Below, in pieces: positions 2,530 through 48,019 of a stretch of 64,000 nt of DNA; position 1 is the first letter of the stretch; every line of letters starts with the position of its first letter. Source of the DNA: Zeus faber (Eukaryota; Chordata; Actinopteri; Zeiformes; Zeidae). The notes under the pieces are model-generated. The model saw nothing but the letters and a program-made list of their open reading frames with translations. It ran no database searches and was not told where the DNA came from. The stretch lies in contig OY482852.1 of the NCBI GenBank assembly GCA_960531495.1, forward strand, positions 5,627,706 through 5,691,705. The letters run 5' to 3'. The position numbers and the translations under genes were made by a program.

Positions 2530-5500
2530 CTATTTTATAGACAAAGCTTTCTGTTCGCAGATCCAGCGGTTTTTCTTCTCACAGTCCACACGGTTCCATT
2601 CATATTGTCCCCTTGTTGTATAAACCGCTACACAGAGAGGCCGGGAACTATTTCTTCGTGGCCAAAATCTGCAGGGAGAGTTGGTTTGTTAAATGACGTC
2701 AGACAATTTGATTTATAACCTTTTGATATAACGTTCTCTTACATATGAGGCTCTTCTCTGCCATTGACCCAGAACCATCGACCAGACTCAGCCGTGTTCG
2801 ACAAGCCCATCCAGTAGCCGTCCTCTAAGGTAGGATTACCATCGCTGTGCTTACTGACAAATGTCTGATGATGACAGAACAACCAACAATGAACAGATGT
2901 GTGTTTGTGTTTCACTAAAAGGTGTAAAACACTGTCTTACTGACTGTTTTGTTCCCATGGCACTTGAGGTGTTGTGGATGTTCTGTGTTTCATGTGGACA
3001 GTGTATTGACCACAACTAGCTGCGCTGCCTTATTGCACGTGCACCATCTTTGCATTGTTGCCAGGAAAAGACAGACCCCGCCACCAACGATGGCAACAGC
3101 AAATAGAGGAGCTTAGAAAGTGGCAGCTAAATTAATATTGTATTTATTTTTTTGAATAAAACAATCTTACAGATTACCAAAATGAACTTTTAATGTTTTC
3201 AAGGAACAGCAGGTAAATCAACGTCACTGCTCCTCTCTCGCTCTGCGCTTCAGGACGCTCTGACTGACGTAGACTGGGACACGTTCCAATCAAGTTCAAG
3301 TGACGTCAGCGAGTTTACGGAGGTTGTAGTAAGTTTTGTGGCTACGCTCGCGGATAATATCGTTCCACGGTGAAAGTTCGGATATTTCCAAACCAGAAAC
3401 CGTGGGTTGATAAATCCATCCTTGGCGCTCTGAATGCTCGCACGGCCGCTTACAACGACGGACTTGTATCTGGTAACATGGACAGTTACAAAGCGGCGTC
3501 GTACAATCTGCGGAGGGCGGTGAGGGACGCTAAACGGACGCACAGAGAGACCGTGGAGCTGCAGATGGAGCGGGGGGACACAAGACGCTTGTGGGAGGGG
3601 CTGCGAACAATAACAAACTACAAGAGCAGCTCCTCCCCAGCCACGAGTGTGGACGCCTCCCTGGCCAACCAACTGAACTCCTTTTATGCGCGGTTCGAGT
3701 CTGGCAGCAACACCGCTGGCTCGCCGGCTATTTGGAGTTACACCGCTGGGGATGAGCGCGCACTCTCAGTGTCCGTGCACGAGGTCAGGAGGGCTCTGAT
3801 GCGGGTGAACACCAGGAAAGCTGCGGGCCCAGATGGCATATCTGGGAGAGTACTGAAGACCTGTGCTAACCAGCTAGCTCCGGTGTTCACCACAATATTC
3901 AACATCTCCCTGACTGAATCAGTGGTCCCGTCCTGCTTCAAGAGGTCCACCGTGGTTCCTGTCCCGAAGATCGCCTCTCCAACCTGCCTGAATGACTACC
4001 GTCCGGTGGCCCTCACCTCGGTGGTCATGAAGTGTTTCGAGAGGCTGATTAAGGATTACATCTGCGCCTCCCTCCCCCGCACCTTGGACCCGTTGCAGTT
4101 CGCGTACCGGCAGAACAGATGCACGGATGACGCGGCCTCCCAGGTACTGCACACCACGCTCACGCACCTGGATGGCCAGAAGGGGGCCTATGTGAGAATG
4201 CTGTTCATCGATTATAGTTCAGCTTTCAACACCATAGTCCCCACCAGACTGGCTGTCAAGCTGATGGAGCTCGGACTGAATGCTCCGCTGTGCACCTGGA
4301 TCCTGGACTTCCTCACAGGCCGCCCCCAGGTGGTCAAGGTGGGGAAGTACATGTCCAGCTCCCTCACCCTGAATACAGGATCCCCCCAGGGCTGCGTCCT
4401 CAGCCCCCTAATGTACTCCCTGTACACACATGACTGTGTGGCCAGGTCCAGCTCCAACACCATCATCAAGTTTGCTGACGACACCGTGGTTGTGGGCCTG
4501 ATCACCGACTGCGATGAGAAGGCCTACCGCCAGGAGGTGGCTGACCTGTCACTCTGGTGCCAGGACAACAGCCTCTTCCTGAACGTCAGCAAAACCAAGG
4601 AGCTGATTGTGGACTTTAGGCGTGGATCACAATCAAGGACGCACGCGCCGTTGTGGATTAATGGGACTTCTGTCGACAGGGTGAGCAGCTTCAGATATCT
4701 GGGAGTCCACATCACAGAGGACTTAACATGGACTGTACACACAGACACTCTGGTGAGAAAGGCGAGGCAGCGTCTCTACCACCTCAGGCAGCTGAGGAAA
4801 TTCCGGGTCTCGGTGAGGATCCTCAAGTCCTTCTACTCTGGAGCAGTGGAGAGCATCCTGACAGGCAACATCACTGCCTGGTTTGGGAACTGTACTGCCC
4901 AGTACAGGCGGGCCCTGCAGAGGGTGGTGCGTTCAGCTGAACCTACCACTGGAACTACCCTCCCCCCCTTGCAGGAGCAATACACCAGGAGGTGTAGTAG
5001 CAGAGCCCGCAGGATCATGAAGGATCCTCATCACCCCAACAACGGACTGTTTCTGCTGCTGCGGTCAGGCAAGCGCCTCCGCAGTCACGCAGCGAGAACA
5101 GAGAGACTGAGACAGAGTTTTTTCCCGCAAGCCATAAGAACTGTCAATGCTGACCTCACCAGGGGTCCTAACACATAGGCTCCACTACGTACTGTACTGT
5201 ATGTAGCATACTGTAACGCATAGTGTGTCACTGTTCAGGGTTGTTCGTGATGCCGTATTGCTGCGCCGTACTGTTGTATACTGTGCTGTATTATCCCAAA
5301 CACTACCTCACTCTATTCACATTCACATGCCACTTTAATTCACATGCCACTTTAATGCACATATCTGTATATACATAGGCATATTCCTTCTATCTATTCC
5401 ATTTTATTTCATTTTATTTTTATTGTATTTTATTCAATATATTTTTATCTTATTCTATAAGTATTCAACTTACTGTATTACGTTTTAGGAGTCAGTTAGT

Positions 5501-46300: not shown

Positions 46301-48019
46301 CCCTCAATTTTTCTCTCAAAAAAATGTAAATAAATACACCAATACTCACAGTAAACGCTGAGGACTATAACTGACACTGCCAGCACGACGCAAAGAATCC
46401 CCAAATGTAACGCCACTTGCTTGAAGGAATGGTTTTGATCTGGAAGAAATGACATTTTATCCCATGCAATAATTGAATGAACAAAATAATTTTCAAAATC
46501 AGAAGATGTTATTCATACAAACTGACACACAATTGTTTAACAGCAACGGGGCGAGGAAGGCCAAGGCCAGAGCCAAAATCAGAAATCAGTCTTGTATTTC
46601 TACAGACATTGAACACAGCATTATTAAACCTCCAGCAACATTTTGTTCATTTGTAATTGATACATTTTCTGCTTTCCCTTGTTCTATACATCATGATTCT
46701 CTATGATCGTTCTAGAATCGAGGGGGCGTGGTCTCACTCGAATTAATATTCATGAGCTGACCTTTGTGTGACAGGTACAAACTATGAGTGGGCGTGGCTT
46801 CAAATGTGACGCTGTGTAGAAATACCAATTTCTTCCTTTTATACATCTGTTCCTTTTTCAAACGGAAGAATAAAATACACGATGCGTAAAGTGATGGCAG
46901 AAAATAATAAAAAGAAAATATAAATCGCTTATTTTCCACACACGAAACAACTTTGTACTATGCATGGATGGTCAATTTTAATTTGACTTGAAGTTGATCC
47001 AGTTGATGCTTTGCTGAGTTTCTGTTTGTGGAAATAAAAAATTATTATGAAATGAAATTATTATTATTATTATTTTTATGATAATAATAATAATAATTAT
47101 AATAATAATAATAATAATAATAATAATTATCAGAATCATAATTGTTTTTCTTATAATTATTATTATTATTTTTATAATTATTATTGAAACCATTTATGAA
47201 CATTGAACCATACACACCACATAATATTCTTGGAACAGAATGTTGAACTTTTGTGGACATGATGTAAATTCTACTTTACCTTTATTGTTGCTGGGGTTTG
47301 TCTCTAATAATGTTGAATCGCCCTGAACCTTGACATGCGCATAGATGATGTCTTTCTCCGTAATATCTGGAAGAAAATCAAATCAAACATTCTGAATCCA
47401 ACTTAAATAGTTTGTACTTTTAGTTTGTGTTTAAGGTAAAAGTCCTGTCTGCGAAGACAAGTTCTGACCATCCTCCAGGGTTTCAGTATATCTCTGATAT
47501 TTCTCCTGAAGAACTGTTTTATCACCACAGTGGTTAACTCTATCTGTTTGTTATTAATTTTACATGAGATCACTAATATTCTGAACAAGTGAATTTATAC
47601 AGCTGAAAAGTTATTTTCCCATGAGGTCCTATCAACAGAGTGTGCGAAAAACTGCCAAATGGAATCATAATTTCAGAATATTTGAAATAATGAATTGATT
47701 AAATAATTGATCATTTCGAAAATAATTCATAATTTTAAAGTATACGTAAATTATTTATTATTATAATTACCCATTATAATAATACATAAATAACCAAATG
47801 TCTGTGTGTACAGTATATAGATACAAAGTAAATTTATTGATATGTGTGTGTATATATGTATGTATGTATGTATATATATATATATATATATATATATATA
47901 TATATATATATATATACTGTATATATATGTATATATGTATATATGTAAATCCTACCTTTGGGTGGAGAAACTTTTGAAGTTTTGAACACAACTGAAGTGT
48001 GGTTGATCTCTTCCTCCAT
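43319..48019 (-). CDS. C-type lectin-like type II receptor D, one ITIM tyrosine replaced
   Basis: Exons: 47956-48019, 47280-47366, 46350-46439, 44566-44597, (stalk 44446-44565), 44337-44445, 44070-44236, 43535-43656 and 43319-43457; 269 aa without the stalk segment. The N-terminal half matches A, but the first ITIM-like motif reads INHTSV (TAC to CAC, Tyr to His); the second, IIYAHV, is kept. The lectin domain resembles B (LVVI, ETHM, EWSHEDC). The second lectin exon starts AFVGEH where the others have TFVSKH. The third lectin exon has FSP where the others have FWP. The stalk segment carries the same TAA type as A and the shared TAG (44446-44448). It is probably an inhibitory receptor with one intact ITIM, or a decaying copy. 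Confidence 0.72.
45097..45196. repeat. 18-bp minisatellite in lectin D intron
   Basis: Five to six copies of the AAGAACACAAGTACAGAC-type unit found at 6696-6836, fewer than in A. Confidence 0.9.
45750..45850 (-). mobile_element. tRNA-derived SINE head (lectin D intron)
   Basis: Orthologous to 7420-7512, with the same B box GGTTCGATCCC on the minus strand. It was duplicated with the gene rather than inserted independently. Confidence 0.5.
45873..46210. mobile_element. MITE-like inverted-repeat element (lectin D)
   Basis: Orthologous to 7536-7873, with the same ends and the same internal direct repeat. Confidence 0.65.
47040..47190. repeat. (ATT)n/(ATA)n microsatellite in lectin D intron
   Basis: Trinucleotide tracts corresponding to 8981-9205 in unit A, with an inverted-looking AAT/ATT arrangement. 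Confidence 0.93.
47871..47947. repeat. (TA)n microsatellite in lectin D intron 1
   Basis: A long TA run next to the first coding exon, expanded relative to 9548-9571 in unit A. Confidence 0.93.

Follow-up and report, generated by a model that had tools for sequence, protein, structure and literature searches.

A candidate array of paired inhibitory and activating C-type lectin-like receptor genes with a lectin mosaic in Zeus faber

Four tandem genes, A, B, C and D, are present in the window (the whole 64,000-nucleotide stretch of Zeus faber DNA that was analysed), and they combine two N-terminal cassettes with one lectin-like domain. The groupings of the two halves form a mosaic, a newly found feature of the array: in the N-halves and introns the pairs are A/D and B/C, whereas in the lectin exons they are A/C and B/D. 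Gene structure, motifs and the mosaic pattern are read directly from the sequence. On that basis, the array probably encodes two signalling forms of a fish type II C-type lectin-like receptor, with lectin sequence moved between the forms by gene conversion.

Array layout and gene models

All four genes lie on the minus strand, as do all features given below, and the earlier note, which had described four tandem same-strand genes at 2530..48019, is exact: position 2530 is the final base of gene A's stop codon, and 48019 is the A of gene D's ATG. When spliced conceptually, each gene gives a type II receptor complete in eight exons, with a predicted length of 255 aa (A and D) or 250 aa (B and C). 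The 28 predicted introns are all GT-AG, with concordant phases among the four genes, and the frame is open from ATG to stop in 4/4 copies once spliced, including the last lectin exon.

The design of two N-terminal cassettes and one lectin-like domain, also proposed in that note, is real. The lectin-half blocks, repeat-rich 3' flank included, present 89-96% identity among copies. Between the two types, DNA similarity in the N-halves is limited to weak scraps (the best of 86 bp, E 0.003), and no protein homology was detected between the two N-cassettes, an equal score being reached by 195 of 1000 shuffles. In the 803-Mb genome, matches to the gene A cassette and to the B/C membrane exon are confined to this array. 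A DNA search with positions 2530-3530 of the window, in which 40 of 2412 first-look candidates were scored, found the 3' lectin part in four places, corresponding to A-D; a search with exon 5 returned five close copies, and 24 further matches with identities of 50% or less.

The stalk is divided between exon 4a (6171..6202 in A, 34407..34441 in B, 39261..39295 in C and 44566..44597 in D) and exon 4b (5942..6008, 34178..34244, 39031..39097 and 44337..44403, respectively). The intron between them, intron 4a, is of phase 0, spans 162-163 nt (GTGAGT...TTACAG), and accounts for a stop that interrupts the long stalk frame in each of the five copies. The translation of this intron looks stalk-like, and it may once have been exon. 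Intron 5 of gene A holds a LINE-like insert.

The array reaches past the left edge of the window, beyond the earlier reader's view, with a broken fifth copy, Z, whose exon 2 lacks one base, and for which no match to exons 6-7 was found in the approximately 13 kb examined beyond its exon 5. Within the window, pieces of a further, sixth copy of the activating type, including the 3' half of the transmembrane exon, remain at 31002..31942; this relic is missing from the earlier reader's list.

Signalling cassettes

The ITIMs described for A and D in the earlier note are found in the spliced models. Gene A has ATG and the ITIM VNYASV in exon 1 (9602..9665), its tail beginning MEEEVNYASV, a second ITIM, IIYAHV, in exon 2 (9299..9385), and an uncharged transmembrane segment in exon 3 (8011..8100). 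Gene D likewise has IIYAHV in exon 2 (47280..47366) and an uncharged transmembrane segment in exon 3 (46350..46439), yet in its exon 1 (ATG; 47956..48019) the first ITIM tyrosine is replaced by histidine (INHTSV), leaving one ITIM in D against two in A. When the gene A tail was shuffled, two ITIMs occurred in 0.3% of the shuffles and at least one in 11.7%; hence, the pair in A is improbable by chance, and the lone ITIM of D is unremarkable. D also lacks the tryptophan of FWP, reading FSP. Through these ITIMs and uncharged membrane segments, A and D would recruit SH2 phosphatases and inhibit the cell, presumably an immune cell.

Genes B and C carry YVNT together with ILLLSFFRSFGLLAVLWGALSLIMGL, and neither an ITIM nor an ITAM. 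In B, exon 1 with the inferred start ATG is at 36056..36116, exon 2 with YVNT at 35689..35751, and exon 3, encoding a hydrophobic segment with R53, at 34930..35028; the counterparts in C are at 40909..40969 (ATG, likewise an inferred start), 40526..40588 and 39784..39882. Having an arginine within the membrane segment or at its border, B and C would signal through an adaptor with an acidic transmembrane segment, of the FcR-gamma, CD3-zeta or DAP12 type. In a genome search for the zeta/FcR-gamma type, four zeta/FcR-gamma-like transmembrane exons with a conserved aspartate were found, and genome-wide support for candidate adaptors is limited to these four.

The arginine had been placed inside the hydrophobic segment, and this stands insofar as R53 lies within a 26-residue hydrophobic run in both B and C; its placement in the bilayer, however, is ambiguous. 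R53 falls just outside the best 19-residue Kyte-Doolittle window (55-73), which takes in R72, but inside the best insertion-scale windows of 21 residues (within 46-68). This ambiguity, and in particular the exclusion of R53 from the most hydrophobic 19-residue window, gives some room to the view that these are C-type lectin-like receptors but no signalling pair, with the arginine at the membrane edge and no adaptor, and with B and C either binding without signalling or using their own YVNT. The latter is of the YxN form, which we take to be a Grb2-like docking motif, and its tyrosine is the only one N-terminal to the membrane segment in B and C. We regard such an unpaired arrangement as unlikely. 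Membrane segments of adaptor-dependent receptors are marginally hydrophobic, and so is that of B and C when R53 is counted in; moreover, both forms share lectin types, which unpaired receptors would not need.

The two cassettes differ in constraint. Between B and copy Z, 4/222 exon positions of the activating cassette differ against 96/1667 intron positions (p = 0.01), indicating that its exons are more conserved than its introns. Between A and D, 10/241 exon and 42/1128 non-coding positions of the inhibitory cassette differ (p = 0.71); given these similar rates, no constraint is indicated. The latter result fits a decaying, largely non-functional cluster, in which open frames merely reflect recent duplication, as do the broken copy Z, the relic at 31.0-31.9 kb, the tyrosine lost in D, the LINE-like insert, and the stops that intron 4a carries if retained. 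Still, such decay is improbable as an account of the whole array: all four window copies are open across eight exons with intact splice sites, the exons of the activating cassette are constrained, and the changes in the lectin half spare its cysteines and its WMGL core.

Lectin-like domain and lectin mosaic

The C-type lectin-like domain (CTLD) is distributed over three exons. Part 1 is in exon 5 (5675..5841 in A, 33911..34077 in B, 38764..38930 in C, where the 3' end is of A type, and 44070..44236 in D), part 2 in exon 6 (2743..2864, 33376..33497, 38229..38350 and 43535..43656), and part 3, with the stop, in exon 7, which is of the WNRVDC type in A (2530..2668) and C (38016..38154) and of the WSHEDC type in B (33163..33301) and D (43319..43457). 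The spliced proteins score 62.9-71.9 bits against Pfam Lectin_C, covering profile positions 2-107 of 107 with one domain each; single lectin exon frames score 13.9-21.7 bits for the five of six that matched. WMGL and every cysteine of the lectin half are invariant in 4/4 copies. The domain is thus a full CTLD with a WIGL-type core and conserved cysteines, as in members of the C-type lectin-like domain superfamily.

The calcium and sugar motifs EPN/QPD and WND are absent from the four domains, in which we presume their positions from the usual motif definitions: NSS aligns near the EPN of DEC-205, and the WND position reads WSH (B, D) or WNR (A, C). Since these residues are missing, the ligands are more probably proteins than sugars. 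Between copies, 9-19 of 142 lectin domain residues differ, so that near-identical ectodomains are carried on two signalling types, as in paired receptors; a short stalk and the lectin-like domain are common to all four.

The mosaic is seen at the sites where the four copies divide two against two. In exons 5-7, eight such sites group A with C and B with D (AC/BD), one is AD/BC and none is AB/CD; intron 5 together with the 3' flank has no AC/BD site and eight AD/BC sites (Fisher p = 0.0004 for lectin exons versus non-coding sequence). B and C differ at 9/1937 positions of the N-half (9/1714 in introns and flank, 0/223 in exons), against 18/428 in exons 5-7 (Fisher p = 3e-8). At the eight B/C differences of exon 5, copy Z has the letter of B at 8/8 and C has the letter of A at 7/8, which indicates that C is the changed copy in this exon. 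A runs test gives p = 0.07 for the lectin-side sites alone and p = 0.003 for all 37 two-two sites.

We read this pattern as the probable product of gene conversion, which would have carried lectin exon sequence across the two forms and made two inhibitory/activating pairs: one lectin type on inhibitory A and activating C, the other on inhibitory D and activating B, with ligands presumably shared within each pair. Part of the pattern could nevertheless be due to selection instead of conversion, since 8/8 AC/BD sites alter an amino acid and the AD/BC site at 33290 breaks the AC/BD block in exon 7. Under this alternative, the residues shared by A/C and by B/D would come from parallel positive selection or from old variants under balancing selection. 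We consider it fairly unlikely as the full cause, given that the seven exon 5 positions at which C equals A lie within 25 bp and Z agrees with B throughout, and parallel origin at seven neighbouring positions is not to be expected. This alternative bears on how the mosaic arose and is compatible with the paired-receptor reading. Among variable lectin nucleotides, 26 are non-synonymous and 2 synonymous, and pN exceeds pS in 6/6 pairs; the shortage of synonymous changes is no more than suggestive (binomial p = 0.06). Two of the A/C versus B/D differences fall on the final two positions of what is presumably the WND motif, and a third adjoins it (WNRVDC versus WSHEDC).

The paired-receptor reading of the earlier note is supported in part: its two-cassette, one-lectin design stands, and the apparent lectin exchange across types is what such a reading would lead one to expect, with the missing ITIM tyrosine of D counting against it. 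More tentatively, A/C and D/B may be two matched pairs, each with its own ligand or ligand allele, in which, after the B/C duplication, conversion copied inhibitory lectin sequence into an activating gene, so that activating receptors track inhibitory specificity; the fish family would then be independent of the mammalian NK complex. This fuller scenario is possible, though we would not expect all of it to hold.

Relation to known receptor systems

Mammalian NK-complex lectins (CD94/NKG2, Ly49, NKR-P1) are type II receptors with a non-calcium CTLD, in which ITIM tails stand against basic membrane residues, and the predicted receptors of the array resemble them in these features, with the basic residue of B and C inside the membrane or at its edge. 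A CTLD spread over three exons (E5, E6, E7) and without calcium residues also agrees with Group V NK-complex KLRs, although three-exon CTLDs occur in group II as well. CD94, NKG2-D and Klrb1 are among the sequence matches. The array, however, matches CD23 and DC-SIGN as well as it does CD94 (scores of the best single-CTLD chains: CD23 60.6, CD94 54.7 and DC-SIGN2 54.7 bits), and its right neighbour is a nestin-like gene with an intermediate-filament rod. The flank examined, namely 19 kb to the left and the right neighbour, showed no neighbour known from the NK complex.

If the pairs are real, fish C-type lectin-like receptors follow the brake/accelerator logic and the ectodomain copying of mammalian Siglec-11/16: in a small array with a recent B/C duplication, an activating receptor appears to have acquired the binding surface of an inhibitory one. 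The array also bears on the question of NK-type lectin receptors in fish. Fish lectin receptors of such a kind are already published, as is the conversion of ectodomains in paired receptors of mammals. Siglec-11 and Siglec-16 are inhibitory and activating partners whose exons for ligand binding stay similar through gene conversion, according to the available text of PMC5701461, and CD300A/C and CEACAM have inhibitory and activating partners in the portions available of PMC12447643, PMC2832619 and PMC5112662; the corresponding portions of PMC4691118 and PMC11505477 add nothing on pairing. The Siglecs, CD300A/C and CEACAM are immunoglobulin-type receptors of mammals or frog, whereas the array is of fish C-type lectin-like receptors with two parallel lectin types.

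Immune-related lectin-like receptors (illr) are reportedly equipped with inhibitory and/or activating motifs (a finding attributed to Panagos et al. 2006). Like the Zeus faber array, with which we liken it by description only, illr of zebrafish and carp is a fish multigene family of lectin-like receptors, compared to NK receptors in the excerpts of PMC4528194 and PMC3319919, where the coiled-coil region of grass carp illr is longer or shorter depending on the splice variant. Lectin-type exchange between inhibitory and activating members, present in the array, is absent from the illr descriptions in these excerpts. Cichlid KLRs (Sato 2003, Kikuno 2004) are also clustered fish receptors whose CTLD lacks the canonical calcium and sugar residues, again compared by description only, and in the passages available of PMC514892, PMC6400144 and PMC1193534 their placement is debated between group II and group V. 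In tilapia, the same passages count 26 KLR genes (PMC1193534) or 28 loci (PMC6400144), against four intact genes in the array.

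Gene models and extent of the array

All four genes, A, B, C and D, are carried by the minus strand. Conceptual splicing yielded eight exons per gene, with E1-E3 (the N-cassette) encoding the cytoplasmic tail and membrane segment, E4a-E4b the stalk and E5-E7 the lectin domain. The frame is open from ATG to stop in all four models, whose 28 introns are all GT-AG with consistent phases, and the predicted proteins have 255 aa (A and D) or 250 aa (B and C). Against the Lectin_C profile, the spliced proteins score 62.9-71.9 bits over positions 2-107 of 107; among six lectin exon frames taken singly, five matched with 13.9-21.7 bits and one had no match. 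Given the joined proteins outscore the single exon frames, the profile scores support the predicted splice models. The four tandem same-strand genes of the earlier note, each with one lectin-like domain, are confirmed.

The array extends beyond these genes. A fifth copy, Z, is located at 5621897-5624046 of contig OY482852.1 (C8), left of the window, which spans 5627706-5691705. Its cassette is of the activating type and lacks one base in E2, and only chance-sized scraps matched E6/E7 within the 20 kb read there. Pieces of a sixth, activating-type copy (the relic) lie at window 31002-31942. Read in the direction of transcription, the array runs D, C, B, relic, A, Z.

Searches were applied to the surrounding genome (803 Mb, 153 contigs). 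All four matches to the B/C membrane exon are inside the array, one being the relic, as are six of the ten matches to A's cassette, the remaining four having E above 1; with these two queries, no copy of either was found outside the array. In the DNA search, the E6-E7 region was recovered at A-D alone among the 40 scored of 2412 first-look candidates.

Intron 5 of gene A contains a LINE-like insert, identified by eye (window 3241-5646), with a reverse-transcriptase-like frame of 606 codons without a stop (3358-5178, plus strand); the 288 queried bases of the insert are repeated genome-wide at 96-97% identity (at least 36 matches; 36 of 40 scored). Several retroelement-like frames, also recognized by eye (reverse transcriptase, integrase-like, zinc-knuckle), lie between A and B (22798-30676). 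The E4a-E4b intron, of 162-163 nt (34245-34406 in B), has a coiled-stalk-like translation (NQRALLSANHNLTNRLRNFSSTNDNLRND in B), a nearly identical centre and stops in all five copies; it is perhaps a former or alternative exon.

Signalling motifs and lectin domain

The A/D motifs described earlier were confirmed: gene A has two ITIMs, VNYASV and IIYAHV, gene D has INHTSV at the position of the former together with IIYAHV, and both have an uncharged, clearly hydrophobic membrane segment. Shuffles of A's tail gave two ITIMs in 0.3% of cases and at least one in 11.7%. For B and C, the tyrosine and the arginine of the earlier note stand: a single tyrosine, within YVNT, precedes a membrane segment of the form P-ILLLSFFRSFGLLAVLWGALSLIMGL-R, in which the arginine (R53) is residue 8 of 26. 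Its membrane position is divided between two scales, since the best 19-residue Kyte-Doolittle windows begin at 55-58 and exclude R53, whereas those of a rough insertion scale begin at 46-48 and include it. The arginine is hence predicted to lie in the membrane or at its border.

In mammalian receptors, inhibition through ITIM-phosphatase recruitment and activation through acidic adaptors are established. By this logic, A would be inhibitory via phosphatase recruitment, D likewise but more weakly, and B and C would be activating via an acidic adaptor, both forms using one shared non-calcium lectin domain. In the genome, four exons pass the Pfam cut-off as zeta/FcR-gamma-like, each with the conserved aspartate; a simple ITAM scan of these loci turned up just two chance-looking strings. 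The paired inhibitory/activating reading is partly supported.

The lectin domain of A-D lacks canonical EPN and WND: NSS sits near EPN in the alignment to DEC-205, and WND is replaced by WSH in B and D and by WNR in A and C. Multi-CTLD receptors such as DEC-205 are the top-scoring PDB chains because the scores of many domains sum. The single-CTLD chains CD23 (60.6 bits), CD94 (54.7) and DC-SIGN2 (54.7) score too closely to decide between group II and group V, a placement likewise disputed for cichlid KLR (PMC514892, PMC6400144). The WSH codons fall within window 33163-33301 (B) and 43319-43457 (D). Given this WSH occupies another place in the domain than Dectin-1's motif, it is a weak lead to Dectin-1-like beta-glucan binding, for which WxH serves as a screening motif among carp lectins in PMC6400144.

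Mosaic of cassettes and lectin exons

One type of N-cassette is shared by A and D, the other by B, C and Z. Divergence between the two types starts within intron 4a and E4a. In the 41 bases ahead of E4a, 11 positions differ, and upstream of these the two types align in weak scraps only. Sites at which two genes share one base and two another (columns gapped in any of A-D being dropped) group the genes differently in the lectin exons. E5-E7 present eight AC|BD sites, one AD|BC and no AB|CD; the corresponding counts for intron 5 plus the 3' flank are zero, eight and zero (Fisher p = 0.0004). Another 20 sites closer to the N-half, 15 of them non-coding and five in E4a, are all AD|BC; they were excluded from this test and included in a runs test over all 37 sites (7 runs, p = 0.003); the 17 lectin-side sites alone give 6 runs (p = 0.07). 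At the protein level, the lectin domains show 9 differences out of 142 for A-C and for B-D, and each of the remaining four pairs shows 15-19.

B and C differ at 9/1714 intron/flank and 0/223 exon positions of the N-half, at 10/722 non-coding positions of the lectin half, and at 18/428 positions of E5-E7. The last of these counts departs from that of the N-half at p = 3e-8 and from that of the non-coding lectin half at p = 0.005. All eight E5 differences lie within 25 bases; there, Z has B's letter at 8/8 and C has A's letter at 7/8, which suggests C as the recipient. The simplest reading of these patterns is that C acquired A-type lectin sequence after the B/C duplication, its direction being read from Z in E5 only, as E7 has no outgroup.

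Regarding selection, pN exceeds pS in six of six pairs, and 2 of the 28 variable nucleotides of E4b-E7 are synonymous by count (binomial p = 0.06). When B is compared with Z, the exons of the activating cassette are constrained (4/222, versus 96/1667 in introns, p = 0.01); between B and C constraint is not measurable at the N-half counts (p = 0.61), and the inhibitory cassettes of A and D present none (10/241 against 42/1128, p = 0.71).

Zebrafish illr are reported to carry inhibitory and/or activating motifs. Clustered lectin receptors likened to NK receptors are known in cichlids and zebrafish, according to PMC1193534, PMC514892, PMC6400144, PMC4528194 and PMC3319919, and ectodomain gene conversion is published for the paired receptors Siglec-11/16 (PMC5701461). 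Among the matches listed, no paper reported lectin-type exchange in a fish array in its title or abstract start, which is weak evidence of absence given that subscription papers are mostly outside the coverage. The array is a kind of receptor set already known, to which the mosaic adds a testable feature.

Neighbouring gene and other lectin exons

The gene at window 51869-59688 (plus strand), which we take to be nestin-like, combines an intermediate-filament rod with a long acidic frame that matched no Pfam entry. Locus L034 (C8:5880790-5883927), some 190 kb to the right of the window, has a CTLD exon judged lectican-like by eye. Given nestin adjoins brevican in mammals, the two may represent conserved synteny. 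Three tandem distant CTLD exons on a second contig (C13:15.68-15.69 Mb; L014, L018 and L019), with 37-41% identity to E5 of the array, are possibly another fish lectin receptor cluster.
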